From: Stephanodiscus triporus
Taxonomy: Eukaryota; Bacillariophyta; Thalassiosirophyceae; Thalassiosirales; Thalassiosiraceae
Assembly: GCA_036939755.1 (NCBI GenBank)
Contig: JALLAZ010001316.1
Location: 1-13,489, forward strand
Length of the DNA: 13,489 bases
Reading direction: 5' to 3'
Part shown: positions 3,315 through 13,402 of the stretch, in pieces
How the letters are laid out: each line of letters starts with the position of its first letter
Numbering within the stretch: the first letter of the stretch is position 1
Notes under the pieces: generated by a model
What the model was told of the DNA's origin: nothing
The model's database searches: none
The model's input: only the letters and a program-made list of their open reading frames with translations
Program-made: the position numbers and the translations under genes

Positions 3315-4570
3315 TTAGCTGAAACGGGAAAACGAAGGTAGCTGGACCCGTCGTGACCTGTCACCTCCAATATTTTGTCTCGTCTCGGCATTAACACGAT
3401 GGTTCCGCTGCCGAGGGTCCTCGATTGATACTACTTGTGGTGCAATTTCTTGGATCGTTCGAAACGATCTAAACGTGAGCATTTGTTTTGCGACGTGGCA
3501 CGAAAACTGCTCCACCTGTTTCCGAATATACCGTAGGAATGCGTCGCTCAACCATCTGCCAATCAGCATGATGGTATAAACTGGTACTCCTGCCAGGTAC
3601 ATTTCCATTGCCGCTCCCAAGCGTAGGGAGTGCGTCCCGATTTCCTTCGGCTCGAAACCTAGTGTCGAGCTTCCGACTGATCGTGCTGCCGCCCGTAGTC
3701 GCAGCAGAATCTGCGACGAACTGATTTTATCTACCCGTCTGCCGCTGCGCTGAAAGGTGCAGATCGGTGTATTGTCTGTCGTCCCCTCGTAGCTCCAAAT
3801 TCTGTTCACTAGTCGTGCCCATTGAAGAACTGGGCATAGGACGGGGTCGTCTGTCCGACCGTGAATCACTGTGTCAAACTTGCTGTCGTTCTTTTGCATT
3901 TCAAATGTCACTGTGACGCTGTCGGCTAATTCCAAATCCGCCGAAGGTGCTGAAATTAGATGCCTCTTTTTGAAGAACCTAATATTTTTCAGACAAAGCA
4001 GTTTAGTGCGTCGTTCCTCTGTCTTTGGGACAACCGAGTATTCGCAAGATCTACACGTGAAGAAGGCTGCTCCGATAGTCAACTGGCTCAACGCGATATT
4101 TAACTCTGTCACTTGTCATTTTGCTAATTCTTCTAACACGATGAAAGGTAGGGCCTTTTGTTGTTTTTGTTGGGGATCGTCGTTCTTGTAAGCTCGGTAC
4201 TGCCGTGATAGAAGGATGCTAAGTTCGTTGTCTTCGTCTTTTGTGGGGTTCTGTCTGCCCGCCGCCCGGAAGGCCTGAACCACATGTGAAACGGCACCTC
4301 TGACTGTGCCTTCAACCAGCACCTCATAGCGTTCCCCCGAGAATCTTCCTTCCCTGATAGCCATTGCAAATGCTCCCCAAGCATGATAATTTGTTCATGT
4401 CGCGCGAGCTGGTCCATGAAGAAGTCCTTGCATCCAACGGACTCGCAGTATTCAGTCCATCGTCGCCAGGCTCTAGCTTCGCCGTCGTGTGTTCCTCCCG
4501 TAACTGCTAGCTCACGGGCAATTGCTGCAGCAGTGATGTCAGCCAGGAGCTGATTTCGCTGGGGAGAGGT
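3315..4570 (-). pseudogene. Tyrosine recombinase (YR) of left-hand element, broken
   Basis: This is the integration enzyme of DIRS-type elements: it cuts and joins DNA through a covalent 3'-phosphotyrosine bond, replacing an integrase. The N-terminal part is read from about 4570 to 4375 (ADITAAAIAREL, ARAWRRWTEYC, EQIIMLG). The frame then shifts near 4365-4380 and continues as AFAMAIREGRFSGERYEVLVEGT and onward to an in-frame TGA at 4118-4116. The same frame continues to the stop at 3315. Catalytic residues are all present: Arg in CRSCEY (about 4052-4050), His and Arg in THSLR, Trp in GRWLSD, and Tyr in RYIRK eight residues after the Trp, which is the normal spacing. The N-terminus overlaps the RNase H tail in another frame, as is common in this superfamily. 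A GTG just after the TGA is unlikely to be a real start, because protein-like sequence runs straight through the stop. Confidence 0.8.
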
Positions 4571-6207
4571 GATATCACGAAATGGTCGGGCATCTGATTT
4601 GGGAAAATTTTGCGAAGGAGTGAGGTGAGTTCGTCGTTAGTTCTGTGCCACTCCCATTATTTTTCTTCCCCGGGAACCACTGACTATAGCCCTTGACGTC
4701 TGCGCTCATGAATATTTCTGCGTATTTTCTCGCCGCGTCGACTCGCGTCCTTGCTTGGATGGGGTCGGTGCTCGGTTCGCTGAAATTCAACTTTCGCATC
4801 CAGCCTTCGGCCGTCGTGCTGTCGGTCATCGAAAGTGCGCATTCCCCTCGATTTAGGCGTCCGCTAACGATGTCGATCCAAGGCGTCACCACCGCTGCCA
4901 AAAATTCTAGCAAATTGTTCGACGCTCGGAATTGCAGGTCGTCGGGGATTCGGAATCGCCAAGCGAATCCTTGGTCGCTGTAGCCGCCCAGGCCGGCGGG
5001 GCATGAGTCCGAGTAGTAAATTCTGTCGGGGGAGCGGAAACCGAGTAAGTTCATATCGATTCCCCCTCTCACTTTCTCCAGTAATTTCAGCATCAGAATT
5101 AAATCACTTCTGCACTCCTCGTTTAATGCGATTGTTTGCCTGTGTTGAGCGCGTCCCAGCAGTGTTTGAAGCCTGCTTAAGAAGTGGAAGACCCATGGGA
5201 TGACAAAGCCTACGTGGCCTAGTCGTCCGATCGTTGACTCCAGCGCTTTCTTCGTCGTTCTTCCGCGGTCTAGCATTGACTGGATCTCACCCGACCACGC
5301 GATGTATTTGTGTTCGGGGAGGCTTACGGTGAGTGTTCGGAAGTTGAAATGCCATCCCAAAATTACTTTTGTTTCTGACAGCCCTCCTTTTGTCCTCTGC
5401 CACCATCTTCTTGCGTGGGATTGGTTCGTTCAGGTCGTTCAGACGGGCTGCGACTTCGATCGCAAGGGGGATCGCCGCTTCAAGTCTATCGGCGATGTGT
5501 GTGCCCGGCAGGTCAACTCCAAGAGCCGTCGTATCGTCGATATAGACATCCGCATATCCGCAGGGGTTGACATCGATGTCGACGATGAGCTCTCATCCGG
5601 TCGCAAAAGGTACGTTGTCGCTGAAACACTCTCGCGGGGGGATGTCGGCCTGGACCGACGCATGTAAGGTACGTGGATCCCAGTCGTCGCATTTTAGAAG
5701 CTCGTTTGCCAAATCGCATATTGTTTCTGACATTATTCCCCATTCGAATGGACATGGTGCTCCTCCGAAGGTGAGGCGGAGTGTTATTATTGCCAGGTCG
5801 TCGTTTGGGAGTTGTGTTGCTGTTTTTAGTGCTGTTTCGTAATGCAGGATGCCTCAATGGTAAGCCGATTTATAATCGATTTTTGCTGCAAGGATGCGTT
5901 GATTTGGATATTTTCGTCTCGCTGCTAACGACCAATTTATCAACCGTCGAATGCAGAAGCCGTATCTGCAAGCTTGCAGAGCGTCCTTTTGGACACGGCT
6001 GTTCACGGAAGTCCCGGACGACCACTTCCAGCTTTGGTCGTGCGTCAGGCGATCTTTCGGGACGATCCTGCCGAACTCGTCGATGGTGTTCTGCGCCATG
6101 ATGTTCATCGGTGCCATGCAGATGCCTGGGATTAGTCGGGTGCTTGCGAGAGGAATGGTCGCCAGTAGCCGCAGAAAAATTAGCGGTGAGAACGATGGAC
6201 AGCTCAT
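4507..6207 (-). pseudogene. Reverse transcriptase-RNase H of left-hand element, broken
   Basis: This enzyme would copy element RNA into DNA. Reading from an ATG at 6207: GICMAPMNIMAQNTIDE, then DRLTHDQSWKWSSGTSVNSR, then AAKIDYKSAYH with the first catalytic Asp, typical of DIRS-type RT. A TGA follows at 5856-5854 and another at 5595-5593, in the same frame. The active-site YIDD is at 5544-5533. Near 5382-5397 the frame changes in an A/G-rich run, and the match resumes as GGLSETKVILGWHF, the LGW block after the RT palm. RNase H follows: IYYSDSCPAGLGGYSD, an E in NNLLEFLAA, and MTDSTTAEG. Near 4648-4672 a second frame change destroys the usual AD-LSR region, and the tail (NDELTSLLRKIF, then PDHFVISPLPSE) runs to a TAG at 4509-4507. 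That TAG may be the natural end or a further nonsense change. Not functional as it stands. Confidence 0.8.
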
Positions 6208-6600
6208 GGTGCCCGCGTTCTCTGATTATCAGCTGAGTGTGAAAAGAAAATGTGGGATTAGTATCTTAAAAACAAATAATTGGTCTGTCTGTCTGAGAAA
6301 TTTTCCAGAAATTCTCGCACACATGACAACCACACATTCATGGTGCCAAAAGTTCTTTTCCTGCGCGCGGGAACACCATGTCAGCTTTAAATTCGAACTT
6401 GCCCCCTCAAATGAGAGGGCTCGAATTGCTCATTGTTTTTCTTTTGGGTTGCCGAATACAATCAACAACCCATTGTCTTGGATCGTTATCAAGGCAAAAT
6501 TTTCCATTGCCTTGGATCGTTATCAAGGCTAATCAAATATCAGACGAATTAAAAAGCGGATTAAGGTAAATAATATCAAGCCCTCCGCGGCTCTTTCCCC
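6208..6600. other. Junction between two divergent retroelements, no gene
   Basis: No coding region is supported on either strand; the open frames here are long only by chance and show no family motif. The region holds the 25-bp direct repeat at 6471-6529 and, on the minus strand, a good-looking 3' splice site (TACTAAT at 6263-6257, pyrimidine tract, CAG ending at 6233) 26 nt before the RT ATG at 6207. The left end of the right-hand element should lie here, but I see no repeat that marks it. Confidence 0.5.
6471..6529. repeat. 25-bp direct repeat, two copies
   Basis: Copies at 6471-6495 and 6505-6529 match at 24 of 25 positions, around the core CTTGGATCGTTATCAAGGC, and are separated by 9 nt. 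The core has 5-bp complementary ends (CCTTG/CAAGG) in the second copy. The position between two oppositely oriented retroelements fits a terminal sub-repeat or a small local duplication. Confidence 0.85.
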
Positions 6601-6636
6601 CTTTGATGTTGCCGGCGGGTCCTGGTTAAAATCGTT

Positions 6637-6963
6637 GCCGTCCAGGCCGTCCGTTATAAAAGTCCGCCTTCAATGGTGGCCAGGATTGACCCCTGAGACT
6701 ACCTCTATCGAGGTTTCGTCAATGTTTAAGTCCAGTCTGCTCTAAACTACTGGCCGGGGGCGTGAACCCCCGAGACTATCGTCGAAAAGTCCGCATTCAA
6801 TCGCGGCCGGCATTATCGCCGAGACTACCTAACCAAAAGGATTCGTCGTCATAACAAAGTCCGCATCAATACGGCCAGGAATTGAGTCCTGAGGCTACCT
6901 TTTAAAGGATTCGCCATTTTCTACTTGTTTCTGACGAGCAACACGGAGAACGGCCTGGACGCC
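6637..6963 (+). ncRNA. Four-unit structured RNA array in element leader
   Basis: Four tandem units with AGTC at 6661, 6729, 6788 and 6858 (period 59-70 nt). Each reads AGTC, hairpin 1, a single C, hairpin 2, A, then GACT (GGCT in unit 4), so AGTC can pair with GACT to close a three-way junction. Hairpin 1 stems: CCGCC/GGTGG, CCAGT/ACTGG, CCGC/GCGG, CCG/CGG. Hairpin 2 stems: CAGG/CCTG, CGGGGG/CCCCCG, CGGC/GCCG, CAGGA/TCCTG. Sequence changes while pairing holds, including the G-U in unit 4's outer stem. A third small hairpin follows in units 1, 3 (weak) and 4, then TTCGTC or TTCGCC. A 12-bp perfect inverted repeat, CGTCCAGGCCGT (6639-6650) with ACGGCCTGGACG (6950-6961), plus CCGT (6651-6654) with ACGG (6943-6946), encloses the array. 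I do not recognise the family. Plausible roles are translation initiation, packaging or reverse-transcription control of the retroelement RNA. Confidence 0.65.
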
Positions 6964-7073
6964 ATGCATTTCTCTAACGAGATTCAAAAATGTCCTTCAA
7001 ACTAACAGCATTTTGTTATTATTCTATGAATAGACATGTCAACAAACTGGCTCACTTCGAAGCCTGCTCCTGA
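6964..7073 (+). promoter_or_regulatory. Upstream ORFs before gag, one overlapping its start
   Basis: An ATG at 6964 opens a 13-codon reading frame ending at 7005. An ATG at 6990, with another in the same frame at 7026, opens a frame ending at 7073 that overlaps the gag ATG at 7036. Further ATGs occur at 6606, 6673 and 6722 within the structured leader. If the transcript contains this region unspliced, simple scanning would rarely reach the gag ATG. These may be chance ATGs in a leader that is spliced, bypassed or not transcribed. Confidence 0.4.
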
Positions 7074-9423
7074 AACCCCGGTTTTGGACTGGTTAAAATG
7101 GTCGGGCCAAGATCTTGAGCGTTACATCGCTGAATCTGATAAGATTGCAGCCATCATTGGTATCAACAAAATGGGAGACGTCGAAACAATGTATAGTCCC
7201 ATTCTCATCCCGAAAGCATTTGCTTCCGATCATTCGGCTATCATTGGAAATCAAAACGATAAGCGCAACAAGCCATCGTTTATTTATTCAGATGCATCTG
7301 ATATAGGCTCAATCATGGTTGTCTTGACATACGAAGATATTCACTCCGAATTGCGCCCGGACGAGCATCTCTCTCCACGAACCATTGCTGATACTTCTTG
7401 GGCCAGTGCTAAGGTCAGACTTGGTATGGTGCAGTTCCCCATGGTTGCCCCAATCTTTTTCCAGCAGAAGACTGTCACATGCTCCGTACACGACCCCAAC
7501 TTTGAAGAACTACTAGGAGAAATCTCCCCTACCCACCTTCGTTGGGCCCAACTAATGAGAGAGCAATTGACTCAAGAAGAAAATGACGGTAAAGATTTGG
7601 ATCTAGTTATTCAGCGTCTCACGAAGTCCCGTAGCAAGGCCGATAGCGCAAAAATGGTGACAGCTGGATTTGGTGTGGCTCGTCCCGCTGAATCAACCTT
7701 TCTCTCCACTTTTAGTCTTCCACCTGAAAAATGGGTCCTACAACAGACTCCCCTTCGCGAACTCTTTGTTGGTAATCCAAGCCCTCGCAAGAGTCAACCC
7801 CCCCCCCTTGACGTAAATGCTCGGAATATCAATTTTGAGCAAGAACAAGTCGAACCGAACGTGGGTGCGGCTTCCGGCATCTCCATTGGCACCATGAACC
7901 AGCAACCCAACCAATCCTTGAGCGGCCCCTTCGATCCCATGGCCTTCCTGAAATTATGGGGTGACAAAATGCAGTTGATGCAACAGCAGCCTCAAACGAT
8001 TGTCGTTGAGTCCAGGGCCGACAAGTCGCGTGAGACTGAGGCTAAATTCAATAACCATATGCTGTTGTTATTCCTCATTTCCGGCGAAGTCGATTTTGCA
8101 CTCCCTGGAACATTCACAGCTCCTCGAATCCCAACGTACACCCAAGCAATGGTGAATGTCCTCGCCCAACCTTCATCGGTACGCGGCATTCATGCAGTCA
8201 ACATTCTTACCACCTGCTTCAATCAAGTCCCTACGGACCTTGCTGAACGTCTTAGCCCTTTGACGACTCACAAGTCCATGAACTTCATCTCAAAGAACTT
8301 CGCGACTTCATTCATTACTGCCAACATCCAACGTACCCCCCTCGAGTCATTGAAGTTCGAGACAAGCTCGGTTACTATTTTGAGCTTCGTTGGCCAAAAT
8401 GATATTGCAAAAATTGAGGCTCATCGTGAGGCTGAGCAACTTGCCAAAAACGAGCGTGAATTCGACTTCGTCGACACTCAACGTAAAGCCCTCAAGACTA
8501 CCATCGAAGGTCTCGGAATGATCACAGGGATGGAGTGCGTTGTCAAAATCTGTGCCAACGTTTGCTGCACCATCACTGCCCTCTTCGACATTGATCGTAC
8601 CAACCCTGTCCCGCTCTTCTATAGTGTATGCATCAAGACAATCGACTTTATAAAAAGTCTCGATTTCATCAAGTGGCACGCGACTGTGCAGACTCGTGTT
8701 CCCCAGTTGCCTTTTATTTTTTTAAACATGCTCCAGCAAGTTTTATCGCAACTGGCAATTTACTCCACTAACACCGTGAACATCAACTTGATTGAGCGTG
8801 GAGATAACGGCTCCGGTGTCAGTACCACTGAACTTCTGAAGATCGTGAAGCTCGTTTCCTGCTTCTTCGAAAGAATGGAAAACCACATCCTCGAAGGGAG
8901 TTACCCGGACACCGTTCCAGCGTTTACCCCACGAGATTGCAACCCCAACCATAAAGCCACGAGTGTTATTATGACTTCTGCCGTTGACGACCGGCCTGCC
9001 ACTGAAAAGGTCAAGATGGATATATCCCCTCCAGGTACTCCTGCTCGTGATAGAAACTCCAAGAAACCAAAACTCAGAGCCGGTGCTGGTACTAAAGACT
9101 TCACGAAAGCCGGCCTCTTTCGCTGCAAGGAAGGAACCCCCATTGGAGACTTGTTCCCCACGGACCTCTCCAAGAAGTATTGCTCTTTCTTCTGTTTCCA
9201 CGACAAGAAGTGCTCCAAGCCCAAGCAATCTTGTGATTTTGAACATGTTGGCAAATGGGATAAAATCCCCGTCGAAGACCAAACCAAAATTCTCGAGCAC
9301 TGTCATGCAAGTGGTGGAAAGATCTGGCTTGACGCAGATACCTTCACCAAGCATAGGATTACGAACATCCCTGATAAATTTGTATACCTCCTAGGTGATG
9401 CAAAAGGCCCAAAGAGTACGTAG
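7036..9423 (+). CDS. gag: Gag-like protein with C-terminal CCCH-type zinc finger
   Basis: A 795-aa protein in the first position of the element, where gag sits in DIRS-type elements; it would bind and package element RNA. I assign it from position and the C-terminal finger, since the body resembles no family I can name. The finger is Cys720-x5-Cys726-x6-Cys733-x3-His737, with an extra Cys at 716, a spacing like RNA-binding CCCH fingers. Near residues 280-325 there is a Gln/Asn-rich stretch (NQQPNQ, MQLMQQQPQ), and around 660-690 a basic, Ser/Pro-rich linker. The ATG at 7036 is chosen because the protein-like frame begins there. The run of ten C at 7798-7807 encodes prolines and is a possible slippage site. 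The TAG at 9421 is followed by 30 open codons in the same frame leading into the RT gene. Confidence 0.7.
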   Translation: MSTNWLTSKPAPETPVLDWLKWSGQDLERYIAESDKIAAIIGINKMGDVETMYSPILIPKAFASDHSAIIGNQNDKRNKPSFIYSDASDIGSIMVVLTYEDIHSELRPDEHLSPRTIADTSWASAKVRLGMVQFPMVAPIFFQQKTVTCSVHDPNFEELLGEISPTHLRWAQLMREQLTQEENDGKDLDLVIQRLTKSRSKADSAKMVTAGFGVARPAESTFLSTFSLPPEKWVLQQTPLRELFVGNPSPRKSQPPPLDVNARNINFEQEQVEPNVGAASGISIGTMNQQPNQSLSGPFDPMAFLKLWGDKMQLMQQQPQTIVVESRADKSRETEAKFNNHMLLLFLISGEVDFALPGTFTAPRIPTYTQAMVNVLAQPSSVRGIHAVNILTTCFNQVPTDLAERLSPLTTHKSMNFISKNFATSFITANIQRTPLESLKFETSSVTILSFVGQNDIAKIEAHREAEQLAKNEREFDFVDTQRKALKTTIEGLGMITGMECVVKICANVCCTITALFDIDRTNPVPLFYSVCIKTIDFIKSLDFIKWHATVQTRVPQLPFIFLNMLQQVLSQLAIYSTNTVNINLIERGDNGSGVSTTELLKIVKLVSCFFERMENHILEGSYPDTVPAFTPRDCNPNHKATSVIMTSAVDDRPATEKVKMDISPPGTPARDRNSKKPKLRAGAGTKDFTKAGLFRCKEGTPIGDLFPTDLSKKYCSFFCFHDKKCSKPKQSCDFEHVGKWDKIPVEDQTKILEHCHASGGKIWLDADTFTKHRITNIPDKFVYLLGDAKGPKST

Positions 9424-9513
9424 ACTCATTTGTTTTGCCCTACTACGGAGATTGGAAAATGGTTCGCCATCCGTTGCCACCCGGAGTTTTCTTTTCATAT
9501 TTCAACCTCATAT

Positions 9514-11784
9514 ATGACTGATCAAGTCATACCATTTACTCGTATTCGCGCCATACCAGGCCAACCAAGCAGCTTCGGCCGCTCGGTCTACCGTTCAATA
9601 CACGATAGCATAAAGCCAGTAAAATTGAAGGTTACTCAGAATCTAATACCAAACAAGACCATGGATTGTGTTTTGCACCGAATGAACTCTGTCGACACAG
9701 AAGGAATTTTAACTAAGCCCATCGACAAAAACGCCATCCTTGCAAAATATGATGATGATTGCAAGAAATTGGGCAACCTCGGCCAAGTCACTACAACAAA
9801 AAAAGGTGAGCCAACACATTCGCCTACTTCCTATCCTTCAATCTACCAACTCGTCCGTGATTGCTCGATGAAACCGGACAATAACCACTACTATCGAGTT
9901 CAAGATTTGACCTTCAAGAATATCATAGTAATTCTCATTAAGTCTGTCGATAGCTACCTCTCGGCCGCGTGCATCAAAAAGCTTTGTTGTTTAAACTGGT
10001 CGTTCAACGAGATGACTACCGATGTCTGTCGACTCAGAAACCTGGACTTCTCAAAACTGAAAGAACCAAGATTTGGATATGCAGACCAAAAAGAAATCCA
10101 ATCGTCACGCGTTGACATGGCAACCGCAGCAATAATACACTACTCGTTGCATCCAGGGATGCTAATACGATATGTTAAGGGAGAGTATGTTGGAGAATCC
10201 AGGAACGTGTCTCAAATTATCAATGACGTTTCTCCGTACATTAAACAAGAGGACGCTATGCATATCAAGCGAATCCTCACTAATGGCGTCCCTTCCTACA
10301 TGAACTTTGAAGAAGCTTCAGACATGAAATCCTTCATCATTGAAAAAGGAAACCAAGCAACGTTCAAAACGCACCCTGAAGCGGTCACGAAGACCATGAA
10401 CAAAGAAGATAAGCACAGCCATCTTCTCCCAGTTAAACTTTGGGTTTTGCATTTCTCGCCTTGGTGTCGTCACACGGCTCAGGGTATGCAAATCAAACCT
10501 GGGAAAAATCCTAGAGTCATTTTTGATGCATCCACGAAGGGAAGCCCCCATGAAGTTGTCCTGAATGAATATACCCCCACTGAATTCAAAGCCAACATTG
10601 ATTTTGGTCATGCCAAAACAAATCTACTTCAACAAATTTATAACTTGAGGATTGGCTTACCGCAAGAGATAATATTTCTGGCACTTGCTGACATCACAGC
10701 TTGCTTTCGATTACCAAGAGTACACGCTGATTTAACTAGGGCCTTCGGATTCATGGTTGATCACTTATACTTCTTAGCAACGAGCATGGTCTTTGGTTCA
10801 GCCTCAGCCAGCAGTTGGGAACCCCTCAGAAGAGCTATCCAGGCTATGATTCCTATATTTTCAATGAGAGATGACTTGGTAATTAAGCACAAGGCATTGC
10901 TCGATATGCTTGCATGGTATGATGACGATATGCTTGTTCCTACTCTAGTTCAAGCCTTTGGTTGCGCAATTAATCCAGGTCTTTCAGATCAACATGGCCC
11001 TCTCAAAGCGTTAATCTATGTTGATGACATACTGGCAGCAGCGGTAGGAAAACGAAATATCCTTCGCCTACTCGCCGCCATCATTGAAGCTATCTTTACA
11101 GTCTGTGGTCGTACAATGATTGAGCATCGTCAATGTCCCCTCTCCATCGAAAAATGGGAGGAGTTAGTTATTGGCCCTGTTCAAACCGTCTTGGGACTAA
11201 TAATCGACACCAACAAAATGACTGTCGGTATCACACACGAGTACCACAAGCAAGTCTTGGATCTCCTTAATGATAACTGGCCTGACACTAGGCGCATCTT
11301 CAAAGTACGAGACGTCCAAAAACTAGTTGGGAAAATTGCGCGTCTAGGTGAAGGTGCCCCGTGGATATACAAAATCATGTCTCACGTTTACACCTCCCTA
11401 GCCTTTGCCCTCAAACAGAACGAATCCCTTCTACGGCAGTGCTCCCCCGAATTTCGCAACATCGTCATGAGAATCGAACGAAAGCAATTTTCAGGCGACC
11501 AATATGCATTTGCTAAAGAGCTGAACTTTGCTTTAAAGACGGCTTCAAAGATGGTCAACAGCCACTCGCAAATATACATCATAAATGATACAATGCGTGA
11601 AGAACTACGATTCATCCGACAGGCTTTACAAGAAGACTCCAAAATTTCCTTTGAGGCACCTATCGCATTTATCATTCCAAGAATCCCATCAGCATCCCTC
11701 TTCGGAGATAGCTCCCTTACATCTTGTGGTGGCTATTCCACTGACCTACGTTTTTGGTGGTTCGTACTTTTCCAGATGAGATAA
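9514..11784 (+). CDS. pol: Reverse transcriptase with start of RNase H (frame broken at 3' end)
   Basis: 756 aa from the ATG at 9514; the same frame is open back to the gag stop at 9421, so a readthrough product would start earlier. An N-terminal region of about 300 residues precedes the RT. RT landmarks (numbering from 9514): RVIFDAS (334-340); LADITACFRLPR with catalytic Asp393; IYVDDI with Tyr502 and Asp504-505; VLGLIID as the LGxxxD block; then a thumb-like region. RNase H begins at SLFGDSS with Asp732 and GGYSTDLRFWW, then the frame runs into TAA at 11782. The rest of RNase H continues in the -1 frame from 11772. The role is to copy element RNA to DNA and remove the RNA strand. Motif spacing and order match the DIRS-type RT-RH and not Copia or LINE RTs. 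Confidence 0.8.
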   Translation: MTDQVIPFTRIRAIPGQPSSFGRSVYRSIHDSIKPVKLKVTQNLIPNKTMDCVLHRMNSVDTEGILTKPIDKNAILAKYDDDCKKLGNLGQVTTTKKGEPTHSPTSYPSIYQLVRDCSMKPDNNHYYRVQDLTFKNIIVILIKSVDSYLSAACIKKLCCLNWSFNEMTTDVCRLRNLDFSKLKEPRFGYADQKEIQSSRVDMATAAIIHYSLHPGMLIRYVKGEYVGESRNVSQIINDVSPYIKQEDAMHIKRILTNGVPSYMNFEEASDMKSFIIEKGNQATFKTHPEAVTKTMNKEDKHSHLLPVKLWVLHFSPWCRHTAQGMQIKPGKNPRVIFDASTKGSPHEVVLNEYTPTEFKANIDFGHAKTNLLQQIYNLRIGLPQEIIFLALADITACFRLPRVHADLTRAFGFMVDHLYFLATSMVFGSASASSWEPLRRAIQAMIPIFSMRDDLVIKHKALLDMLAWYDDDMLVPTLVQAFGCAINPGLSDQHGPLKALIYVDDILAAAVGKRNILRLLAAIIEAIFTVCGRTMIEHRQCPLSIEKWEELVIGPVQTVLGLIIDTNKMTVGITHEYHKQVLDLLNDNWPDTRRIFKVRDVQKLVGKIARLGEGAPWIYKIMSHVYTSLAFALKQNESLLRQCSPEFRNIVMRIERKQFSGDQYAFAKELNFALKTASKMVNSHSQIYIINDTMREELRFIRQALQEDSKISFEAPIAFIIPRIPSASLFGDSSLTSCGGYSTDLRFWWFVLFQMR

Positions 11785-12326
11785 TTGCGCGAACGTTGTT
11801 GCATCTCAAGAATGACTCGGAATCAAACTTCATCTCGATCAACGTACTGGAATATGTAACAGTAATCTTAAATTACTGTAGGGCACTCACCGTTTATATG
11901 GAAGATGCTCCGACCGAAGACCCCCATCCGGTGGTGCTTTGTGTTACTGATAACATCAGTGTGAAGAAATGGACTACCCACACATGCAAAAAATCCATCA
12001 TCGGCCGAGCTTTGGCTCGTTTCTTCTGTGGACTTATGATCAATTCCCATGTTGGTATCAATGCAAAATGGATCAGCATGGCAGCGAACAAGATAGCGGA
12101 CGATATTTCTCGACTAAAAAAATCTCACACTTCAACTTCATCATCATTTTGCTATGACTTTTCAAAACTCAAACAGGACCATGCGGACCTGAAACATTGT
12201 CGTTTTTACCACCCGAGTCAAGAGCTGCTCTCTTTGATCTGGGAAACAGTGTTGACGAGAAAATCGCCAGACTTAGAATCACTTCAAGCATTGAGACTGA
12301 GCGGTTTAGGCAAGCTAAGTACCTGA
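11772..12326 (+). pseudogene. RNase H remainder of pol, in the -1 frame
   Basis: Continues the RNase H fold after the frame break: FPDEIIARTLLHLKN, then an acidic residue in INVLEYVTVILNY, an Asp in VLCVTDNISVKKW, and ANKIADDISRL as the last conserved Asp block. Reading the C at 11772 twice joins FWWFVLF to PDEIIAR smoothly. So either one base of the CTTTTCC run was lost, or ribosomes shift -1 here; the former is more likely inside a folded domain. Open to TGA at 12324-12326. Its last 169 nt overlap the open recombinase frame. Confidence 0.7.
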
Positions 12327-13402
12327 ACTGGTGCCGACTCAAAATGATCCCAGATGCTTGTGGAAACGAACATGGATACGAACGCATACTCGCTTGTTTT
12401 ATTGAAAATCTCATCATTGATTGTCATTCGCGCTCAGCCACTATTCTTGGCTATGCCCAAGCAATCAATAAGCTCTTTGAACTAAGAAAGTTTCCCATCC
12501 CTGCAAACTTATCAGACAAGACCAACATGATATCTAAGATCGTCCAGGCATGTGAGCGCGAGGAGAACATCGCCAAACAGCGAAGTCCTCTAACTAAAGA
12601 AATGTATGTTGAGATGGCTAAACGTGCCGAAGCATCCCCACAAGATTCTGTACATTCGGTCCTATTTGATTACTTCAACTTAATACGAGTAGGAGGATTC
12701 AGAGTTTCTGAATATGCCCAAAAACTCCAAACAAAGGTTGATGAGTTTGAATATGGATCTGGCAACAAAGTGGTCAAGGCTTTCGTCCCTTCGGATTGGC
12801 AATTCTATGATGCCAATGGACGCCTCCTGACGATACACTCACTCAATGGCCTTACAGAAATCCCAAAGCGATTGCGTATTACTTTCAGAATTCAAAAAAA
12901 TCGTAAGAACGGCCAAAAAATCACTTTTGCTGCTGATGATAAGTATCCTCATATATGTCCGGTCCGTTCGGCATATCGAATCTTTTTGAGAGCCAAGAGA
13001 CTTGGCCAATCTGATCACCAGCCGATGGGCGTTTACCTCAACGATCAAGGTATTGTTAAATACCTCACGGCCAATAAAATATCCGAGCTACTACAATCGA
13101 TAGCAAAGCATTGCCATCCGGATTTGACCAGAGATGAAATCTCACGCTTCTCCTCCCACTCTGGAAGAGTTTGGGCTGTCGTATTACTGGATGAAGCCGG
13201 AATGAATTCAGATTTTATCAAATCTCGGCTCCGTTGGATGGGGGATTCTTACAGACTCTATCTAAGAGATACTGCGGCCCTCCAAACCAAACATATTACT
13301 GCCCTTGAAAAAGCTTCATTTGATTTCATAACATTGTTCGGAGAAAATTGTATCACACTCCCTGACATCGTCCCTGACGATGATAGCATGGACCCTTATT
13401 AA
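12158..13402 (+). CDS. Tyrosine recombinase (YR) of right-hand element
   Basis: This is the DNA strand-exchange enzyme that would insert the element. The frame is open from 12158 to TAA at 13400-13402. The first in-frame ATG is at 12344, but protein-like sequence (SRAALFDLGN, IETERFRQAKYLNWCR) begins before it, so the protein probably starts by a shift from the RNase H frame or from a non-ATG start near 12197. Numbered from 12197, the N-terminal core-binding region is about 27-145. The catalytic domain has Arg169 in GGFRVSEYA, His321 and Arg324 in SHSGR, Trp347 in RWMGDS, and Tyr355 in RLYLRD, with the Tyr eight residues after the Trp. The full R-H-R-W-Y set is intact and the C-terminus is complete, so this domain looks functional. 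The tail is acidic (DIVPDDDSMDPY). Confidence 0.8.
   Translation, partial: LFKTQTGPCGPETLSFLPPESRAALFDLGNSVDEKIARLRITSSIETERFRQAKYLNWCRLKMIPDACGNEHGYERILACFIENLIIDCHSRSATILGYAQAINKLFELRKFPIPANLSDKTNMISKIVQACEREENIAKQRSPLTKEMYVEMAKRAEASPQDSVHSVLFDYFNLIRVGGFRVSEYAQKLQTKVDEFEYGSGNKVVKAFVPSDWQFYDANGRLLTIHSLNGLTEIPKRLRITFRIQKNRKNGQKITFAADDKYPHICPVRSAYRIFLRAKRLGQSDHQPMGVYLNDQGIVKYLTANKISELLQSIAKHCHPDLTRDEISRFSSHSGRVWAVVLLDEAGMNSDFIKSRLRWMGDSYRLYLRDTAALQTKHITALEKASFDFITLFGENCITLPDIVPDDDSMDPY

Follow-up and report, generated by a model that had tools for sequence, protein, structure and literature searches.

The window, a 13,489-nt stretch of Stephanodiscus triporus DNA, carries an Ngaro-like tyrosine-recombinase retrotransposon, as indicated by its gag, reverse transcriptase (RT) and tyrosine recombinase (YR) genes, by split repeats in a relative and by predicted folds. 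The element starts at position 6159 and continues with the direct repeat A1, a gag-like open reading frame (ORF), an RT ORF, an RNase H-like continuation and a YR ORF, with a putative first exon and intron ahead of gag:

6159 to 6503, plus strand: A1, 5′ direct repeat of the Ngaro-like element (by blastn; in solo loci B lies directly 3′ of A)
6429 to 6565, plus strand: putative exon 1, bounded by a conserved CTCATTGTTTTT-like motif and the splice donor (by eye, the two are similarly spaced in other copies)
6566 to 7033, plus strand: putative leader intron, GTAAATAAT ... GAATAG, 468 nt (layout common to other leaders)
7036 to 9423, plus strand: gag-like ORF, with a C-terminal C-x3-C-x5-C-x6-C-x3-H, CCCH-like by eye
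9430 to 11784, plus strand: RT ORF (YVDD motif; predicted fold)
11754 to 12326, plus strand: RNase H-like continuation of pol, which in the window copy occupies a frame of its own
12197 to 13402, plus strand: YR ORF, with a predicted Cre fold

Gag, RT and YR matched no Pfam family at E up to 0.01. For Gag this held below E 0.1, and for the RT ORF neither Pfam nor the PDB gave a match by sequence. Matches did come from the predicted structures of RT and YR (mean pLDDT 77.6 each): RT resembled the RTs of foamy virus (E 3.4e-6), XMRV and Ty3, with TM-scores of at most 0.44, and YR resembled Cre (best E 6e-8), with TM-scores below 0.5 and the integron integrase 2a3v among the weaker matches (E 8e-3). 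Residues H321, R324 and Y355 of YR were invariant among 19 aligned sequences. Longer relatives carry sequence matching the RNase H-like part in one reading frame (from the consensus line, by eye only). All four cysteines and the histidine of the Gag motif were present in four of five aligned Gags, one of them with C-x4-H; an RNA-binding domain was unconfirmed by Pfam, which gave a Nab2-type CCCH finger in one relative only (E 0.11). RT had 77 relatives and YR 328; among those listed, the only two with an organism name were Thalassiosira. Viral contigs yielded no relative, by RT alignment or by unit pattern.

A blastn search with window positions 6159–6560 found matches in C896, C653, C216, C560, C219, C688 and C1190, which mostly ended at query positions 340–348. 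In the first four of these A is followed without a gap by B, making them solo AB loci. In the relative C219, B1 (L069 2038–1803), A2 (1803–1503) and B2 (1502–1434; a matched length of only 69 nt) lie downstream of YR, so that this relative has split direct repeats, A1-[ORFs]-B1A2B2. Their 3′ part was not seen in the window, whose 3′ side ends at the contig end. In Ngaro elements as described in PMC8547959, gag is followed by RT/RNase H and then YR, the direct repeats are split as A1-[ORFs]-B1A2B2, and solo AB loci occur; gene order, split direct repeats and solo AB loci here agree with the relevant passages of PMC8547959 and PMC3783388. A comparison of 5′ and 3′ regions in five elements found no long terminal repeats in four and, in C1190, only the repeat of a neighbour. 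In that contig (L066 2075–1483) two different elements lie head to tail with a common B1-A junction, as if joined at the repeat. C220 and C1138 are A repeats without the hairpin array described below. A 29-nt direct repeat occurs twice, 34 nt apart, at window positions 6470–6532, shortly 5′ of the splice donor, its second copy just outside A1. On the minus strand, positions 3315–6207 hold a second tyrosine-recombinase retroelement, which the Pfam family Phage_integrase matches only weakly (E 6e-4, short of the cut-off). At about 6159 its RT-like frame meets the Ngaro-like element's 5′ end, and the Ngaro-like element probably interrupted this second one.

The first-pass annotation had reported a tandem array of four RNA units upstream of gag, each with two stem-loops whose stems differ between units and keep pairing. 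The units are indeed present, at 6659–6915, and both stem-loops are found in each, with stems that vary and remain mostly paired; the exception is one A-C inside stem 1 of W4. A 12-bp helix, P0, encloses the array:

6639 to 6650, plus strand: 5′ arm of P0, the helix enclosing the array (inverted repeat I4)
6659 to 6720, plus strand: unit W1, type I, with a long third hairpin
6727 to 6783, plus strand: unit W2, type II, with CGGGGG-CGTGAA-CCCCCG and a short GAC-TATC-GTC third hairpin
6786 to 6847, plus strand: unit W3, type I
6856 to 6915, plus strand: unit W4, type I, with a GGC/GCC third hairpin
6950 to 6961, plus strand: 3′ arm of P0 (inverted repeat I4)

Three further copies, C1190a, C1190b and C688, carry this array ahead of gag sequence, and it is also present in C563, a truncated copy that lacks gag. 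The window has four units, C1190a four, C1190b two and a remnant, C688 five and C563 five, partly decayed: 20 units in all, 16 of them in the four other copies. The C1190 copy with four units is 83% identical to the window. Between the window and C1190a the innermost pair of P0 changes from U-A to C-G; two other base changes in the 3′ arm give one G-U and one U-U. Two unit types can be told apart: type I has a long third hairpin, and type II combines a CNYGAA-like stem 2 loop with a short third hairpin like GRC-UAUC-GYC. By eye, C1190a also has a separate AUAGAACG/CGUUCUAU-type hairpin 5′ of its array, and C1190b and C688 have hairpins like it 3′ of theirs (leaders L002, L033 and L051).

A covariance model built from the first ten units recovered those ten and one weak match (E 1.1) in 10 loci, and found five units each in C688 (E 1.1e-9 to 7.4e-5) and C563 (E 1.6e-8 to 0.027). 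A pattern scan of the organism's own genome, which was not exhaustive, A2 and B1 being among the known units that its pattern overlooks, gave 12 matches: eight known units, a new unit in C688, and C637, C860 and C864. The last three were taken as chance, since a reversed control gave two matches and the model, run at E up to 1, picks up none of the three. Rfam had no match in the window and nine related loci, and known ribozymes and riboswitches were set aside on this ground; in the array region three hits (E 1.9 to 8.9) were all below the gathering score. A hammerhead has the core motif CTGATGA, and a hammerhead on the minus strand was dropped because no such core was seen by eye. No tRNA-like structure was present in the window.

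What shape does each unit take? It had been proposed that the two stem-loops are closed by an outer AGTC/GACT helix into a three-way junction, and that this helix covaries through a G-U in unit 4. The proposed helix fared poorly. None of its four pairs had a two-sided change in the model alignment, and it gave no swap signal in ten units. AGTC is identical in 18 of 20 units, so the G-U in unit 4 is not covariation; moreover, the last C of AGTC is the same base as the first C that had been assigned to stem 1. In a hand parse the helix was broken in five of the 20 units (D2, D5, E2, E3 and E4), and the one A-U to G-C change was in unit E5 of the decayed copy. The first-pass annotation had missed a third hairpin, in which GRC pairs with a downstream GYC. 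When each structure was forced, the third hairpin was lower in energy than the junction in 17 of 20 units (in D1, E1 and E5 by no more than 0.5 kcal/mol). The free minimum contained the third hairpin in nine units and the junction in none. Three consecutive hairpins thus fit covariation and energy better than a three-way junction, but A2, A3 and B1 favour the junction. We conclude that each unit is predicted to form three successive hairpins, and that the junction may occur as an alternative state.

To score covariation, units were parsed by the conserved anchors AGT, GGYC and AGRC, only pairs outside the anchors were counted, and 3′ strands were swapped among units; third-hairpin strands and orthologous groups were set by hand. 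Over all 20 units, pairs 3–5 of stem 1 were paired in 54 of 60 cells (34.5 when swapped) and pairs 2–5 of stem 2 in 74 of 80 (62.1 when swapped), with no swap in 100,000 as high in either case; the middle R-Y pair of the third hairpin was paired in 20 of 20 units (15.5 when swapped; P 6e-5). The 15 units outside C563 gave 40/45, 56/60 and 15/15 for stem 1, stem 2 and the third hairpin (P 0, 0 and 1.4e-3), and nine units, one per orthologous group, gave P 2.7e-4, 7.1e-4 and 7.9e-3. These P values are optimistic, because swapping does not remove shared ancestry. The four units of the window alone fell short of significance, with 10/12 for stem 1 (6.5 when swapped; P 0.085), 14/16 for stem 2 (11.25 when swapped; P 0.084) and P 0.25 for the third hairpin. 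The earlier claim that compensatory changes point to selection is therefore supported over the 20, 15 and nine units, but not on the window's four units, from which it had been drawn.

The model alignment pointed the same way. Five of ten pairs were changed on both sides (2.1 when shuffled; 2 of 500 shuffles as high), 22 cells had a two-sided change (5.6 when shuffled, and three or fewer when the partner was slid), and the covariation score was 0.318 (0.183 when shuffled); standard pair types, at 10 against 9.7 in shuffles, showed no excess. The model (R1) is approximate because the first MAFFT alignment of the units misplaces stem 2 in W4, A4 and B1, and for this reason the swap tests rest on anchors. 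Between the orthologous units B1 and E1 there are two compensated pair differences in stem 2, where the third member, D1, has three A-C mismatches. Stem mismatches were G-T in 12 cells and A-C in 11 (10 and six in the interior); since G-T is not clearly above A-C, this comparison does not separate RNA from single-stranded DNA hairpins. Folded singly, the window units were not unusually stable (z of -2.36, -1.10, -1.15 and -0.91 for W1 to W4); positions 6620–6980 folded whole gave z -3.04.

From its sequence motifs, the array probably sits inside an intron, flanked by a donor of the GTAAAT type and by an AG that immediately precedes gag. This donor/acceptor layout was found in 10 of 12 leaders read, namely nine parsed from donor to acceptor and C688; the leader matches C74, C1314 and C75 lie outside the parsed set. 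The donor pattern AGGTA[AT][AT] occurred once in each of ten leader stretches, and acceptors were picked by eye. Among the nine parsed leaders the intron starts with GTAAAY in eight and with GTATTT in C211. An ATG follows the acceptor AG by 0 to 5 nt in eight of ten leaders and is absent at the expected place in C1190b and C546. The C563 leader has GTGAAT and no gag. The unparsed C612 leader shows AG|GTAAAC, which resembles a donor, and a site resembling an acceptor, but its upstream sequence differs from A. A host gene of the actin family loses its frame at CCA|GTGAGT, where an intron apparently begins.

The distribution of ATG codons was uneven across 11 leaders: the 100 nt before the donor (exon 1) contained six ATGs against 16.4 expected, and the introns 84 against 66, counts to which C563, taken at arbitrary length, contributes one and 18, respectively. 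Exon 1 was fused to gag in none of ten gag copies with upstream DNA read. Since the copies read keep the intron, the unspliced RNA must be the copied template if splicing occurs. Intron folds had z of -1.28 to -4.47 in nine copies (40 shuffles each) and -5.44 in C688, compared with -0.60 to -3.92 for the 300 nt upstream of the donor and +0.93 to -2.55 for the first 300 nt or less of gag; strong folding is thus not confined to the intron, because the 300 nt before the donor fold about as strongly.

The same intron slot in other lineages holds hairpins of other kinds. The C1217 intron has six hairpins with the loop AAUNA (0.10 in shuffles) and the C1246 intron three (0.18), and the C211 intron has four with the loop UUUCC or UUCC (0.38), none of 500 shuffles being as high in any of the three; C257 has two hairpins of the UUUCC/UUCC kind (0.30; 22 of 500 shuffles as high). 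Hairpins with an AAUNA loop were absent from the C885 and C211 introns and numbered one in the window (63 of 500 as high), while the loop CNYGAA occurred once in the window (30 of 500) and twice in C688 (2 of 500). Because the loop motifs were picked with the sequences already in view, the counts are descriptive. In the rows of C1217 and C211, like loops sit on varying stems.

What might such a row of hairpins do? The reading we favour, to which we give slightly less than even odds, is that it forms a cis-acting RNA domain in the leader intron of the Ngaro-like element, retained only in unspliced genomic RNA, and most likely acting as a multivalent packaging signal read by Gag. The tandem hairpin triplets, enclosed in the window by the 12-bp helix, would have the exon 1 donor on their 5′ side and, on their 3′ side, the acceptor ahead of the gag start. 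The gag mRNA would lose them through splicing; the full-length RNA would retain them and serve as template for new copies. Gag would then attach to several of the hairpins, possibly by way of its C-terminal Cys/His motif, and the array so bound would mark the unspliced RNA as genome, much as psi does in retroviruses. Psi lies between the major splice donor and gag. A packaging signal fits best because a hairpin row with recurrent loops, putatively limited to the RNA that would be the genome, stands alongside a Gag with a conserved Cys/His motif. From the computed hairpins, covariation, position, recurrence and element class we infer splicing, Gag binding and packaging.

Two known packaging systems bear comparison. 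In retroviruses the unspliced RNA is packaged (PMC5035971). The array resembles psi in its place relative to the putative donor and gag, in its several hairpins and in its putative restriction to unspliced RNA; it differs in that a putative acceptor stands just before gag, so that the gag mRNA itself would be spliced, and in that it belongs to an Ngaro-like tyrosine-recombinase retrotransposon and consists of many tandemly repeated hairpins. In BARE, a spliced Gag mRNA is kept apart from the packaged RNA, according to the abstract of PMC3735527. The proposed arrangement likewise assigns Gag synthesis to a spliced RNA and packaging to a different one; BARE, however, is an LTR element, and the abstract contains no hairpin array.

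The main rival, which we consider unlikely though worth weighing seriously, is that the array acts on splicing: hairpin rows would compact the intron or tune its retention and so set the ratio of spliced to unspliced RNA. The donor motif precedes the array in all five array-bearing leaders, four of which also have the acceptor, and the predicted fold of the whole C688 intron (L051 137–715, minus strand) joins the donor region to the acceptor region. The leaders of C1217 and C1246 have, near the donor, a UUGAUUG complementary by eye to the repeated CAAUCA loops, and this complementarity would allow several CAAUCA hairpins to compete for one UUGAUUG docking site. Set against the splicing account, the loop recurs within a lineage and differs between lineages (C1217, C211), which suggests a specific partner over generic compaction.

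Less probable still is a role in reverse transcription or RNA dimerisation, in which loop-loop contacts could pair two genomes. The array lies a short way inside A1, where LTR elements carry a primer site, and in W1 and W4 the stem-loop 1 loop UCAAU is by eye complementary to the stem-loop 2 loop AUUGA; no such complementarity was seen by eye in W2, B1, B2, D1, D2 and D4, and kissing loops were dropped as a general feature of the array.

That the hairpins are a functionless by-product of tandem duplication of palindromes seems quite improbable: the units do look duplicated, vary in number (4, 4, 2 and a remnant, 5, 5), fold singly only modestly well and, in the window alone, lack significant covariation, whereas the swap tests on the larger unit sets and the two-sided changes in the model alignment speak for kept pairing. 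We think it a shade more doubtful that the leader is unspliced and the array an internal ribosome entry or translation-control structure for gag. The array's place directly upstream of gag and the many intron ATGs in the path of scanning ribosomes are consistent with that account, but the donor, the acceptor and the scarcity of ATGs in exon 1 speak for splicing.

Integron attC sites are tandem hairpins that vary in sequence, keep their shape and lie near a gene for a tyrosine recombinase, and the array resembles them in these respects. By analogy the hairpins could be folded single-stranded DNA sites for the element's own Cre-fold recombinase, which has the integron integrase among its weaker fold matches, and the G-U versus A-C comparison is compatible with DNA; we regard this as very unlikely, as the recombination-like junctions in the genome fall between A and B, away from the array, and no gene cassettes were seen.

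Returning to packaging by Gag, one more specific form of it is possible, though distinctly more tentative: the packaging code would be a modular, fast-changing hairpin row in the leader intron, with a lineage-specific recurrent loop on freely varying stems read by the lineage's own Gag. The recurrent loops are CNYGAA and UCAAU in the window lineage, AAUNA in C1217 and UUUCC in C211. If this modular reading is true, a psi would have been invented separately here, with packaging specificities that differ from lineage to lineage.

The first-pass annotation knew of no described retroelement leader motif of this kind. No Rfam family matches, and the titles and abstract openings of the 6 to 20 top papers listed per literature search contained no description of it, nor any work on leader introns or on structured RNA from Ngaro or DIRS elements. 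The main text of the Cafeteria paper (PMC8547959) uses "hairpin" zero times and "intron" twice, the intron passage shown concerning virophage genes without introns, and the fungal paper (PMC3783388) uses "intron", "splic" and "UTR" zero times each. How DIRS-order elements select their own RNA for copying is not treated in the passages of PMC8547959, PMC3783388 and PMC3266345. If the proposed function is right, the array would be, as far as the literature searched shows, the first cis-acting RNA element described for tyrosine-recombinase retrotransposons. The covarying hairpin row is a concrete, testable candidate for how DIRS-order elements make that selection, and through it one could ask how an element tells its message and its genome apart. 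The differing hairpin rows of related lineages are a natural experiment on the joint change of Gag and its RNA target.
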